A DNA stretch of 64,000 nucleotides. It comes from Allobosea sp. WAO. GTDB lineage: Bacteria > Pseudomonadota > Alphaproteobacteria > Rhizobiales > Beijerinckiaceae. The notes below the pieces were generated by a model. That model was not told the origin of the DNA and did no database searches. It saw only the letters and a list, made by a program, of their open reading frames with translations. The stretch covers positions 434,001 through 498,000 of the forward strand of contig NZ_JXTJ01000006.1 of the NCBI RefSeq assembly GCF_001509835.1. The letters run 5' to 3'. A program made the translations under genes and the position numbers. Each line of letters starts with the position of its first letter. The stretch's first letter is position 1. Positions 9,530 to 20,508 of the stretch are shown one piece after another.

Positions 9530-10579
9530 ATGAACATCGCCACAAGGCCCGTGTCGTCCGGGCAAAGCCATGGCGGCGCGTCCGCGGAAGCCTTTGTCCA
9601 GCATCCCGGATATCGCCGGATGTTCGCGCCGGGCCAGCTCACCCTGGGGATTTTCCTGCCGCTGCGCTTCTTCCAGGGCGACATGCGCGTGCTCGAGGGG
9701 CAGGCCGAGCTCGTCGCCAATATCGACCGGCGCGGCTTCGCTGCCGTCTGGGTTCGCGACGTGCCGCTCTTCGATCCCGGTTTCGGCGATGCTGGCCAGG
9801 TCTTCGACCCGTTCACCTACCTGGCCTATCTCGCTGCGCGAACGGAGCGCGTGGCCCTGGCGACCGGAAGCGTGATCTTCTCGCTGCGCCATCCGATCGA
9901 TCTCGCCAAGATGGCCACGACCATCGACCATCTGTCCGGTGGACGTCTGGTCCTCGGTGTCGCCTCGGGCGACCGGCCCGTGGAATTTCCAGCCTATGGC
10001 ATCGACATCGAGACGCGTGGGGAACGCTTCGCCGAGGCGGTGACATACTTCCGGAAGCTGGTCGGACCCGGCCAGTCCTCGATCGTCTCGCCGCTTGGGC
10101 GGATGAGCGGCGTCGATTTCCTGCCCAAGGCGGTCTTCGGCGGCATTCCGCTCCTCGTCACCGGGTCGAGTCGGCAGGTGCTGTCATGGGTGGCCGAACA
10201 TGCCGACGGCTGGCTGACCTATCCGCATGCGACGCACTTGCCGGAAGGTCCGCGCCAACTTGCGCAGAAGGTCAGGGCCTGGCGTGAGCTCATCCCGGAC
10301 GGAGGCTTCCGGCCGCATGTGACAAACGAATGGATCGACCTGGTCGACGACCTGCATTTCCCGAGAACGCCGCTACAGGGTGGCTTTGTCCTGCGGACCG
10401 GGCGCAAAGGCCTGATCGACCTGCTCGGCGAGTGGCGGGAGGCCGGCGTCAATCACGCCGCGCTCGGCATGCAGTTCGCCGAGCGTCCGGCTGCGGAGAT
10501 CGTTCAGGAGCTGGCAGAGGAGGTTTTGCCGCTATTCCCTTCCCATGAGGGCACAGCGCCTTCGAGCGTGAAGTGGTGA
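9530..10579 (+). CDS. LLM class flavin-dependent oxidoreductase
   Basis: A luciferase-like monooxygenase of about 349 residues, predicted (beta/alpha)8 barrel using reduced flavin. Motifs include LTLGIFLPLRFFQGD, DRRGFAAVWVRDVP, LATGSVIFSLRHPIDLAKMA and GGRLVLGVASGDRPVEF. The ATG at 9530 is preferred because AGAGG lies upstream; a GTG at 9503 overlapping the GST stop is the alternative. It resembles the BA3436-type luciferase-like oxidoreductases. The substrate is unknown. Pairing with a GST and a LysR regulator suggests an inducible detoxification or xenobiotic unit. Confidence 0.88.
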   Translation: MNIATRPVSSGQSHGGASAEAFVQHPGYRRMFAPGQLTLGIFLPLRFFQGDMRVLEGQAELVANIDRRGFAAVWVRDVPLFDPGFGDAGQVFDPFTYLAYLAARTERVALATGSVIFSLRHPIDLAKMATTIDHLSGGRLVLGVASGDRPVEFPAYGIDIETRGERFAEAVTYFRKLVGPGQSSIVSPLGRMSGVDFLPKAVFGGIPLLVTGSSRQVLSWVAEHADGWLTYPHATHLPEGPRQLAQKVRAWRELIPDGGFRPHVTNEWIDLVDDLHFPRTPLQGGFVLRTGRKGLIDLLGEWREAGVNHAALGMQFAERPAAEIVQELAEEVLPLFPSHEGTAPSSVKW

Positions 10580-17169: not shown

Positions 17170-17901
17170 TCAGAGGTCGTCGTCGTCCTCGTCGACCGGA
17201 CGCTTCATCTGCTTGAGCTTGGCGAAGACGGAGTCGACGTCGATCGCCGCCTCTTCCTCGCGCTTGGGCTTGCTCATGTCGGCGAAGGGCTGGCTCGACG
17301 GCACCGGCTCGGGAGCGGTGGTCTCCTCGGCCGAAAGCAGGGTCGAGCCGGTCTCGGCGGCGAGGGCGGCCGGGCGATCCTTGGCGGCGCGGGCGACTTC
17401 GAAGTCAAGGTCGATCTGCGAGGCGAGGCCGAGGCTGACCGGGTCGACCGGGCTGAGCGTCTGGGCGTTCCAGTGGGTGCGGTCGCGGATCTGCGCGATG
17501 GTCGATTTGGTTGTGCCGACCAGACGGATGATCTGCGCGTCCTTGAGCTCGGGATGGTTGCGGAGCAGCCAGAGGATGGCGTTCGGCCGGTCCTGGCGCT
17601 TCGACACCGGGGTGTAGCGCGGCCCTTTGGCGCGCTTGACTTCCGGCACCTTGACCTTGCGCTCGGCGAGCTTGAGGCGGTGGTTCGGGTTCTTGGCGGC
17701 GCGCTCCAGCTCCTCGCGGGTCAGCTGCCCGGAGGTGATGGGGTCGAGACCCTTGATGCCGGCGGCGACCTCGCCATCGGCGATGCCGCGCACTTCGAGC
17801 GGGTGGAGTTTACAGAACTCGGCGATCTGCTCGAAGGTCAGCGAGGTGTTCTCGACCAGCCAGACCGCGGTGGCCTTCGGCATCAGCGGCGATGTTGACA
17901 C
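17170..17901 (-). CDS. trcR: Cell cycle transcriptional regulator TrcR (DUF1013)
   Basis: A 243-residue DUF1013 protein. The GTG at 17899-17901 gives the family-typical N-terminus (V/M)STSPLMPKATAVWLVENT and has GGAGA upstream. The N-terminal half is helix-turn-helix-like (FEQIAEFCKLHPLEVRGIADGE). A second region RNHPELKDAQIIRLVGTTKSTIAQI looks like another DNA-binding helix pair. The C-terminus is acidic (VDEDDDDL). TrcR is conserved in alphaproteobacteria and tied to cell-cycle transcription and RNA polymerase binding. rcdA lies 2 kb away. Confidence 0.9.
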   Translation of the reverse strand: MSTSPLMPKATAVWLVENTSLTFEQIAEFCKLHPLEVRGIADGEVAAGIKGLDPITSGQLTREELERAAKNPNHRLKLAERKVKVPEVKRAKGPRYTPVSKRQDRPNAILWLLRNHPELKDAQIIRLVGTTKSTIAQIRDRTHWNAQTLSPVDPVSLGLASQIDLDFEVARAAKDRPAALAAETGSTLLSAEETTAPEPVPSSQPFADMSKPKREEEAAIDVDSVFAKLKQMKRPVDEDDDDL

Positions 17902-18070
17902 GGGCTCGTCTCCTGAAGTGTCGCGGGCAAAAGCTCTCATGCGCCGACCGGCCGCCCCGGCCGGTCATCCAAATCATCGACGATGAACAGGATTGCGGCG
18001 TTATAGGGAAAGCCGTGATCGCTGTCCATGGAAACCATGTGCCGCGTGCCAGGTCCCTGGCCGGGAATTC

Positions 18071-19069: not shown

Positions 19070-19212
19070 GGCGCTCTCCTGGTAGGGTGTCGGTCGGCCT
19101 TGGCATACGCGACCGTTCGCGGCGTCCTCGCGCGTTCGGTCTTTAAACAGGCATCATTTTTCCGGCCGATGGTCTAGTCTGCGCGCCGCAACCGATGCAA
19201 GGCGAGGCTGCG

Positions 19213-19413
19213 ATGGCTGGATTTCTCGACGACGACCGCCCGGCGCCCAAGCGCGCCCATGAAATCGGGCAGGACCTCTCGCAACTTTCGGTGGCGGAGA
19301 TCGACGAGCGGATCGGCCTGCTCGAAGCCGAGATCGTCCGGCTCCGCGAGGCGAGGGAGAAGAAGAACGCCTCGCGCTCGGCGGCCGACGCCTTCTTCCA
19401 GAAGCGGGGCTGA
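19213..19413 (+). CDS. DUF1192 domain-containing protein
   Basis: A 66-residue protein started at MAGFLDDDRP (ATG 19213). The DUF1192 pattern is LSQLSVAEIDERIGLLEAEI followed by VRLREAREKK. It is predicted to be a short helical hairpin or coiled coil. The function is unknown; it occurs next to rcdA/DUF1465 and rpmE in many Rhizobiales, as here. It has GGCGAGG-like spacing upstream but no strong Shine-Dalgarno. Confidence 0.87.
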   Translation: MAGFLDDDRPAPKRAHEIGQDLSQLSVAEIDERIGLLEAEIVRLREAREKKNASRSAADAFFQKRG

Positions 19414-19672
19414 AGCGACAAGGCGCGCCCGACCTCTGAAATGGTGGCGCGAGAACGTCCAGCGCACCGCGCTGCACGGCGCCGACCGCAAGGCTGTTCG
19501 AAGACCAGCCGCCATCGCGGCAAGCAACCGACGCGCCGATGCCTGAGCGAGTGCCGATCGGGCAGGGACGACGTGCCGATTTCTGACGATTCCGTTCCGA
19601 AGCTGGCTTGTGGTGGGGCCTGACGCGGCAAGGCGCGCGAGCGCCGCGGAATCGCCAATACGGGCCGCGGCA

Positions 19673-19706
19673 TTAACCGGCCCTTAACGATTCCAAAGTA
19701 TGAATC
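19673..19706 (+). promoter_or_regulatory. CtrA-type site overlapping two GANTC methylation sites
   Basis: TTAA-N7-TTAAC at 19673-19688 is a perfect match to the CtrA consensus. GATTC (19689-19693) directly follows it and GAATC (19702-19706) overlaps the probable -10 region (TATGAA, 19699-19704); both are CcrM GANTC sites. TTAA is scarce elsewhere in this GC-rich window. The arrangement reads as a CtrA/GcrA-type promoter driving the sRNA candidate that begins near 19711. Confidence 0.65.
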
Positions 19707-19710
19707 TGAT

Positions 19711-19803
19711 CGTCCAGTTTGTCTGGATGTCGAGTGGCTCCTGCCCACTCTGTTTGACGCCTCCCTGTTGACCTTCGAGCCGCCTTCGGGGCGGCTCTTT
19801 TTT
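19711..19803 (+). ncRNA. Candidate small regulatory RNA, ~90 nt
   Basis: Downstream of the CtrA/GANTC promoter lie three consecutive hairpins ending in an intrinsic terminator. Hairpin 1 is TCCAG/CTGGA (19713-19727). Hairpin 2 is GAGTGG/CCACTC (19732-19750) with loop CTCCTGC. A single-stranded linker holds CCTCCC (19760-19765). Hairpin 3 is the terminator. The two CU-rich motifs are anti-Shine-Dalgarno sequences, as exposed in trans-acting alphaproteobacterial sRNAs. No open frame fits. Membership in the CcnA/EcpR1 group of cell-cycle sRNAs is possible but unverified. Confidence 0.5.
19777..19803 (+). terminator. Intrinsic terminator of the sRNA candidate
   Basis: GAGCCGCC / GGCGGCTC with a five-base loop, then six T residues. 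The nearest upstream gene ends 360 bases earlier, so a transcript starting in between is needed to explain it. Confidence 0.85.
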
Positions 19804-19858
19804 GTTCGGGCCTTGCGGAGCGGCGCTCGCTGCGTGGGCGGCCGTGAACCTGCCATTA

Positions 19859-19880
19859 TTAAGGTTAACGAGGCCTTACC
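19859..19880 (+). promoter_or_regulatory. Second CtrA-type site, upstream of rcdA
   Basis: TTAA-N7-TTACC at 19865-19880 differs from the CtrA consensus by one base, and a further TTAA lies just before it at 19859-19862. A possible -10 (GCTATG, about 19896) follows. The site is ~100 bases before the rcdA start. In Caulobacter, rcdA is known to be CtrA-activated, which fits. Confidence 0.55.
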
Positions 19881-19983: not shown

Positions 19984-20508
19984 ATGACCGATTTCCCCAT
20001 GCTGAGGCTGCCGGCCGAAGACGGAGCGATTTCGTTCGCGCGCAACTTCGTCAAGTCCGACGCCTTCATGCAGCTCTTTCGCGAGGGCATGGGGCTGGTC
20101 GAGTCGACGGCGAACTATCTCGACGGGGACGGGCGGCAGGAGTCGGCGGCACTGCCGCGCGAAGTCTCGCTGATCTACGCAACCGAGAGCATGCGGCTGA
20201 CGACGCGGCTGATGCAGATCGCGTCCTGGCTGCTGGTGCAGCGCGCCGTCGCCGAGGGTGAGATGACGGCCGAGCAGGCGCGGACCGAGAACAACAAGGT
20301 CCGCATCGCCGAGCCGATGCTTCAGCCGACCAGCGCCGAGGCCGCCCGCCTGCCGGAGCGCCTGCGCGACCTGATCGCCCATTCGATGCGCCTGCAGGAC
20401 CGGATTTCCCGTATCGAGACCCAGATGACGGCGGCTCCCGCTACGGCGGCCAACCCGGTGCGCGGGCAGCTCGCGAATTTGCAGGCCCGGCTCGCCCTGC
20501 AGGGCTGA
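19984..20508 (+). CDS. rcdA: Protease adaptor RcdA (DUF1465)
   Basis: A 174-residue DUF1465 protein started at MTDFPMLRLP (ATG 19984). The long helices FREGMGLVESTANYLDG and ESMRLTTRLMQIASWLLVQRAV match the three-helix RcdA core. The C-terminal ~20 residues are Ala/Pro-rich and likely flexible. In Caulobacter, RcdA is a ClpXP adaptor, recruited through CpdR, that promotes CtrA and other substrate degradation. The upstream CtrA sites suggest the same negative feedback. Function here is by homology only. Confidence 0.82.
   Translation: MTDFPMLRLPAEDGAISFARNFVKSDAFMQLFREGMGLVESTANYLDGDGRQESAALPREVSLIYATESMRLTTRLMQIASWLLVQRAVAEGEMTAEQARTENNKVRIAEPMLQPTSAEAARLPERLRDLIAHSMRLQDRISRIETQMTAAPATAANPVRGQLANLQARLALQG

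Follow-up and report, generated by a model that had tools for sequence, protein, structure and literature searches.

The rcdA gene in the 64-kb stretch of DNA analysed here (the window) is preceded by two CtrA-type sites, which raises the question of what these sites control, rcdA itself or another transcription unit. A sequence-only reading of this DNA had proposed that both sites serve rcdA in a CtrA-RcdA feedback loop, extended by a CcrM/GcrA methylation layer. The gene at 19984-20508 (+) had been named correctly in that reading, since its product matched PF07323 (DUF1465; 4.8e-54) as well as the Protein Data Bank entry 3ctw, titled 'RcdA' (2.5e-32). The upstream neighbour on the same strand is a DUF1192 gene (19195-19413). 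A second cell-cycle gene was found 2 kb from rcdA, encoding TrcR (PF06242, 'transcriptional cell cycle regulator TrcR') at 17170-17940 on the minus strand.

Both sites were recovered in the window. The first, box 1 (19673-19688, +), is a perfect TTAA-N7-TTAAC (TTAACCGGCCCTTAAC, 0 mismatches), and the second, box 2 (19865-19880, +), reads TTAA-N7-TTACC (TTAACGAGGCCTTACC) with one mismatch. CtrA-type motifs with at most one mismatch occurred at these two places only in the 64 kb. Both places also match on the opposite strand, giving four matches versus 0.25 expected, a number that none of 100 shuffles reached. The scarcity of TTAA described earlier was confirmed, with 12 copies in 64 kb versus 46.5 expected from base composition alone, and four of the 12 lie in the 570-base gap before rcdA. 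In the whole genome (G000), both strands taken together, TTAA-N7-TTAAC was found 22 times versus 5 times for a reversed control pattern. Perfect sites lie ahead of genes encoding FtsK, D-Ala ligase, a flagellar rod protein, a GGDEF-EAL protein and a lytic transglycosylase (sites L020, L014, L016, L002, and L008, respectively). These are five of the 20 neighbouring frames scanned, the rest being porins, transport proteins, a sigma-54 activator or unknown. It is plausible that the perfect sites of this genome constitute a CtrA regulon.

A small RNA gene between the two sites

Comparison with Rfam revealed a match to the alphaproteobacterial sRNA family BjrC1505 (RF02356) at 19665-19804 (84.8 bits versus a gathering threshold of 50, E = 1.4e-16), which takes in the promoter as well as the RNA. 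The RF02356 model has 140 positions, and its consensus positions 1 to about 40 hold UUUAC-N6-UUAAC, a CtrA-type box read as RNA; the 5' third of the model is therefore probably not RNA. Overlooked in the sequence-only reading, a predicted small RNA (sRNA) gene with its own terminator sits between the two CtrA-type sites.

The BjrC1505-family sRNA, about 94 nt long, was placed at 19710-19803 (+) with a putative 5' end, behind a putative -10 element TATGAA (19699-19704, +) that is invariant in 39 of 39 loci. Fold and alignment both gave hairpin 1 (19711-19729) and hairpin 2 (19732-19750), the latter with a C-rich loop (CUCCUG). They are followed by a near-invariant core complementary to the Shine-Dalgarno sequence (GUUUGACGCCUCCCUGUU, 19752-19769, from the alignment of 38 sequences). 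An intrinsic terminator (19777-19803), consisting of a stem at 19777-19797 and a T run, lies between box 1 and rcdA and is conserved among the aligned sRNA loci. The predicted RNA (19710-19803) had a fold z-score of -3.74, with one of 200 shuffles folding equally well. An alignment (A1) of the window with 37 of 40 loci drawn from 36 family groups (38 sequences) contained three helices, in which 97.9% of the cells are paired and 9 of 19 pairs are changed on both sides. None of 500 shuffles matched A1 in paired cells, two-sided changes or covariation score; four of five covariation measures exceeded all shuffles and the remaining one, further pair types, did not (92 of 500). The ends of the core are paired in a small hairpin in the minimum-energy fold of the window RNA and open in the alignment consensus. 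A1 omits L147 and L167, where the core pattern was not found, and L173, where the box and the first hairpin are shifted; all three were nonetheless matched by R1, a covariance model of the RNA without the promoter.

A 23-codon frame opening at 19700 was considered as a small protein within the sRNA and rejected by inspection. It would begin ahead of the putative RNA start, and in relatives it contains indels of 1 and 2 bases (e.g., L066 and L064).

The hairpins, the core and the terminator are common to BjrC1505 and the window sRNA, whereas the Rfam model also spans the promoter and the RNA of about 94 nt does not. In open-licence literature, the name BjrC1505 was found in one paper, as a table entry, and a link of this family to CtrA, rcdA or phages was not found there. 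The accessible passages of a Methylosinus Term-seq study name EcpR1 and alpha-r45 and not BjrC1505. SorX shares CCUCCCUGUU before the terminator in an alignment; in the window, SorX and mmgR/suhB scored 26.8 and 23.5 bits, below their gathering thresholds of 46.6 and 41, respectively. Judged from partial descriptions, PmaR (Agrobacterium, circular chromosome, narrow distribution) and ChvR (Caulobacter, before recF) were rejected as identities, whereas alpha-r45 and others were set aside only because Rfam, searched up to E 0.1, gave no hits in the S. meliloti stretch discussed below. As far as the available excerpts describe them, cell-cycle sRNAs of other species occupy different places. CcnA of Caulobacter crescentus, with 182 nt, is encoded at the replication origin. 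EcpR1 and GspR of S. meliloti act in trans on cell-cycle mRNAs, as the window RNA may do as well. EcpR1, which is induced by ppGpp, lies between divK-pleD and rpmG, and GspR between SMc03844 and SMc03845, whereas the window sRNA lies beside rcdA. An sRNA with a CtrA box is a known kind (compare CcnA); its place here is unexpected and deeply conserved.

Association of box 1 with the small RNA

Two sets of loci were compared. The rcdA-anchored loci are the best 80 of 485 relatives and were chosen only by their rcdA gene. In 77 of these 80, R1 gave a match that precedes rcdA and shares its strand; it missed L108 (short), L114, and L128. Conversely, 38 of 40 sRNA-anchored loci (36 family groups) have rcdA after the sRNA in the same orientation. 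Nearer rcdA-anchored loci (L053-L090, RcdA 66-84% identical, mostly titled Bosea) were distinguished from farther ones (L091-L132); as only the best 80 of 485 were kept, the two groups are not an even sample.

Box 1 was scored as the best TTAA-N7-TTAA match in the 75 bases ahead of the R1 start. Of the 38 nearer loci, 34 had a score of 8/8 and the other 4 a score of 7/8. Of the 39 farther loci, 26 scored 8/8, 10 scored 7/8 and 3 scored lower (L113 with 5/8, L119 and L121 with 6/8). The box began at -34 in all 38 nearer loci and at -33 to -35 in 35 of 39 farther loci, with misplaced boxes in L102 (-16), L117 (-39), and L104 (-49). Shuffles were perfect in 0.1% (nearer) and 0.4% (farther) of cases, and a control stretch further upstream reached at best 6/8 in the 77 loci. 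The conservation of box 1 among close relatives was evident at single positions: in 39 nearer loci, seven half-site positions were invariant and the eighth was kept in 35, and most positions of the spacer, not all, varied.

R1 matched all 40 sRNA-anchored loci, 37 of which are in the model. Here the box scored 8/8 in 16 and 7/8 in 24 loci, and its position was -33 to -35 in 31 of 40, with misplaced boxes in L173 (-22), L147 (-50), and L164 and L167 (both -68). A stricter first box pattern was found in 25 of the 38 sRNA-anchored loci checked. Because the Rfam model contains the box, loci picked by RF02356 (these 40 and the seven rcdA-less genomes described below) lean towards having it; the 80 rcdA-anchored loci are free of that lean. 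The genome sets overlap in part (e.g., L098 and L163), so that R1 is not wholly independent of the 80 loci. A perfect box together with an R1 match and a downstream rcdA was also found in S. meliloti, Sinorhizobium sp. K101, and Shinella.

The occurrence of the sRNA and of rcdA was then compared between genomes. Of 297 sampled genomes of the order, 245 contained RF02356 and 265 contained DUF1465. In a class-wide sample of 190 genomes, RF02356 was present in 20, including two from the family of the window. The sRNA and rcdA are usually present together, so a functional tie between them is possible. The R1 search took in all 20 listed genomes without a DUF1465 match, with 12 more such genomes beyond these. 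Seven of the 20 gave an R1 match and 13 did not (G039, G090, G100, G121, and nine others); in most of these 13, scoring stopped at the first 150 candidates, so that the apparent absence of the sRNA is weak evidence. Six of the 13 have a size of 1.3-1.4 Mb. These patterns give hints that the sRNA and rcdA have often been lost together.

The seven rcdA-less genomes with an R1 match belong to three genera, four of them with 4-9% contamination, and hold eight sRNA loci. The box scored at least 7/8 in all eight and was perfect in three; it was placed at -34 or -35 in seven loci and at -17 in one (L322). Ribosomal protein L31 lies downstream of the sRNA in seven of the eight, and rcdA was not found within 1,500 bases after the sRNA (526 bases in one locus). 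Among chromosomal second copies of the sRNA, L285 (7/8), L287 (8/8) and L323 (8/8) carry the box and L286 does not; L323 (G053 contig 3), with its perfect CtrA-type box, comes from a genome without an rcdA match. Moreover, rcdA was not found within the stretch in five of ten loci outside the order, one of these stretches ending 167 bases after the sRNA. All five have a box with 7/8 or 8/8, in two of them further upstream at -48 and -51. Thus, where rcdA was not found, the sRNA still had its box.

The GANTC sites followed another pattern. GANTC is depleted in the window (91 versus 329 expected). The sequence-only reading had box 1 touched by two such sites, which holds for GATTC (19689-19693), located immediately 3' of the box, and is loose for GAATC (19702-19706), which overlaps the putative -10 element and lies 13 bases beyond the end of the box. 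Four GANTC starts within 115 bases are the densest level in the window; however, random placement of 91 sites produced such a cluster somewhere in 4.6% of trials, so that the cluster alone is weak and conservation is what counts. Any GANTC at -40 to +5 of the R1 start was present in 39 of 39 nearer and in 5 of 39 farther loci, and among the nearer loci the place of 19689 was filled in 39 of 39 and that of 19702 in 37 of 39. GcrA is encoded in the genome (PF07750, 9.4e-54). The proposed CcrM/GcrA layer thus agrees with the promoters of the nearer relatives and finds no counterpart in most farther loci; a methylation layer would be at most an addition confined to the Bosea lineage.

Control of rcdA and alternative readings

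Taken as a whole, the best explanation, which we consider very probable, is that box 1 serves as the CtrA-driven promoter of the terminated BjrC1505 sRNA and that rcdA is served by a separate promoter. What is seen in the sequence itself is the box, the family membership, the covarying structure, the terminator, the order with rcdA, and the presence of sRNA and box in seven rcdA-less genomes; CtrA occupancy and activation, the start site, an effect of methylation, the mode of action and the targets are predictions. The earlier claim that the strong site feeds rcdA was not borne out, as box 1 stands at promoter distance from an sRNA whose terminator (19777-19803) precedes rcdA, and as it is kept in the seven genomes without an rcdA match.

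A better candidate for an rcdA promoter element is box 2. Among 76 loci (L088, where the gap is too short, was omitted), the best box between the sRNA and rcdA was perfect (8/8) in 4, scored 7/8 in 55 and did not exceed 6/8 in 17. In most of the 37 nearer loci, the distance from the start of box 2 to rcdA is 115-119 bases. Weaker than box 1 but nearest to rcdA, box 2 appears the likelier rcdA element of the two, and direct control of rcdA by CtrA may therefore still operate here.

Control of rcdA by both boxes, constituting a negative CtrA-RcdA feedback loop as in Caulobacter, seems rather unlikely to us. It agrees with the position of RcdA downstream, with the joint occurrence or absence of the sRNA and rcdA, and with the narrow range of distances between box 2 and the gene in most nearer loci. 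Passages of published work point in the same direction: the Caulobacter rcdA promoter is described as CtrA-bound and cell-cycle-regulated (PMC4287350), CtrA control of rcdA was predicted for an alphaproteobacterial cluster in 2010 (PMC2877005), and a CtrA motif before an S. meliloti rcdA start site was reported (PMC3616915). However, a terminated sRNA lies between box 1 and rcdA, and box 1 persists where rcdA has no match. Furthermore, as stated in the available part of a S. meliloti ChIP-seq study, CtrA sites lie in the rcdA promoter region and rcdA was unchanged on CtrA depletion (PMC4433202). For Hyphomonas neptunium, which belongs to another order, an excerpt describes rcdA as not CtrA-regulated (PMC7200025). 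Of the loop put forward in the sequence-only reading, the CtrA-type sites stood, being conserved, and the role of box 1 as an rcdA element was not supported; box 2 could make the loop true in part.

The S. meliloti locus shares the layout of the window. In CP090106.1 (chromosome-sized, labelled pSymB), DUF1192 is followed by TTAACCGCAAATTAAG, an R1 match, a terminator-like hairpin with a T run, TTAACCCTTTCTTAAG, and DUF1465. The R1 match was modest (36.4 bits, E = 8.9e-6), and Rfam did not find the sRNA in this stretch up to E 0.1. This shared layout may explain the binding of CtrA near rcdA without a response of rcdA, as the accessible part of the study reports it (PMC4433202): two boxes are present there, at 2665-2680 and 2839-2854 of locus L180, and the ChIP signal may come from the sRNA promoter.

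A further alternative is that the box is real and has another use, being bound by a different TTAA-binding regulator or by CtrA acting as a repressor of the sRNA. The evidence for the box comes from sequence alone and is silent on which protein binds and with what sign. On the other hand, the box has the exact CtrA consensus and spacing, and its 5' base lies at about -38 from the putative start site. In passages on Caulobacter, full CtrA motifs have their 5' base near -35 and are activating in predivisional cells, whereas repressing half-sites lie over the -10 region (PMC4287350). We consider such another use improbable. Finally, we consider it very unlikely that the 'sRNA' belongs to the rcdA transcript as its 5' leader or as an attenuator with regulated read-through. 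In favour of this reading, the two are adjacent on the same strand in 77 of 80 rcdA-anchored and 38 of 40 sRNA-anchored loci, and an excerpt of PMC10469942 describes several start sites for agrobacterial rcdA and places the CtrA sites there at a greater upstream distance than in Caulobacter. Against it, the terminator is conserved, the sRNA is kept without rcdA in seven genomes and (within the stretch) in five loci outside the order, and relatives of the sRNA occur on phage contigs.

Proposed action, phage-borne relatives and significance

According to the preferred reading, in which box 1 belongs to the sRNA, phosphorylated CtrA would bind TTAA-N7-TTAAC over the -35 region and switch the sRNA on when CtrA is active, in predivisional cells or late in the cell cycle. 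In Bosea and near relatives, CcrM/GcrA timing may be added by the two GANTC sites that follow the box and precede the start site. Transcription would stop at the terminator (19777-19803) and not serve rcdA, which would have its own downstream promoter with the weaker, CtrA-like box 2. The C-rich core would pair in trans with ribosome-binding sites, most likely repressing the translation of mRNAs, and CtrA would thereby gain a repressive post-transcriptional arm. A search of 13 genomes for long-seed targets (complement of 16 core bases, at most two mismatches) gave no excess over the control: of 29 matches, 15 lay in sRNA copies, and the remaining 14 compare with 15 for the reversed control. 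One long-seed match recurs in four genomes of the genus, seemingly at the 3' end of a coding frame. The gcrA leader, read by eye, held no convincing target site for the sRNA.

Relatives of the sRNA were found on phage sequences. A search of IMG/VR with the core pattern gave 59 stretches, 10 of which were matched by R1 at E < 0.003 and eight of these at < 1e-5; these loci were found through the core of R1, a model built in this analysis. With the core itself disregarded, a stem before it together with a terminator behind it was found in 8 of the 59, each of which belongs to the 10. A second pattern yielded 28 new stretches, two of which gave weak hits (26.6 and 25.1 bits). A PHROG match was obtained for 14 of 20 proteins neighbouring the phage-borne relatives. 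Packaging, head, tail or lysis genes were present in 8 of the 10 loci (L259, L257, L269, L225, L233, L230, L281, and L277), L261 had an HNH endonuclease only, and L247, the best sRNA match, a primosomal protein only, in the first 2,653 bases of its contig; L261 and L247 are therefore the less certain phage cases. Among the phage relatives, the Rfam threshold was reached only by L247. A C4 antisense RNA (RF01695, 70.6 bits) was observed at 2026-2109 of L257, about 1 kb from the phage-borne relative.

The genome of the window itself holds a second copy of the sRNA on contig 41 (47635-47801; L134, and L283 at 9699-9799), scoring 41.1 bits with Rfam, in a prophage-like region with tape-measure-like and amidase genes on one side and without a CtrA box. 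The sRNA of L259 (IMG/VR contig 2861304655_000001) is identical to this copy, and that of L281 is identical to one found in another genome of the genus, G005, in a second prophage-like region with tail fibre and baseplate genes. Twelve loci were scored for the box, namely the 10, an additional weak one and the copy of the window's genome; none had a CtrA-like box above 6/8, which is the chance level, and no host neighbour genes were found in 14 stretches. In INPHARED, blastn returned 37 records, all from Mycobacterium phages, which were taken as convergent; the 20 matches listed, 26-31 bases long, are made up of the terminator hairpin with a few preceding bases. Searching plasmid DNA with the sRNA gave no match.

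It is a tentative and rather doubtful extension of these findings that throughout Hyphomicrobiales the CtrA circuit has this sRNA as a general output, and that phages have repeatedly acquired box-free relatives which could mimic the CtrA-on state at the post-transcriptional level. If this is true, a phage would make the core at any time and the host only when CtrA is active, and the phage could shift host division or replication to its own advantage. The phage relatives without a box offer a natural uncoupled version for comparison, and the phage side deserves a study of its own.

For the locus itself, the analysis reassigns the strongest CtrA site from rcdA to the sRNA, very probably as its promoter element. 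It offers a testable reason for the binding of CtrA near S. meliloti rcdA without a change of rcdA mRNA. Moreover, a widespread sRNA of unknown function gains a likely regulator and hence a likely time of expression in the cell cycle.
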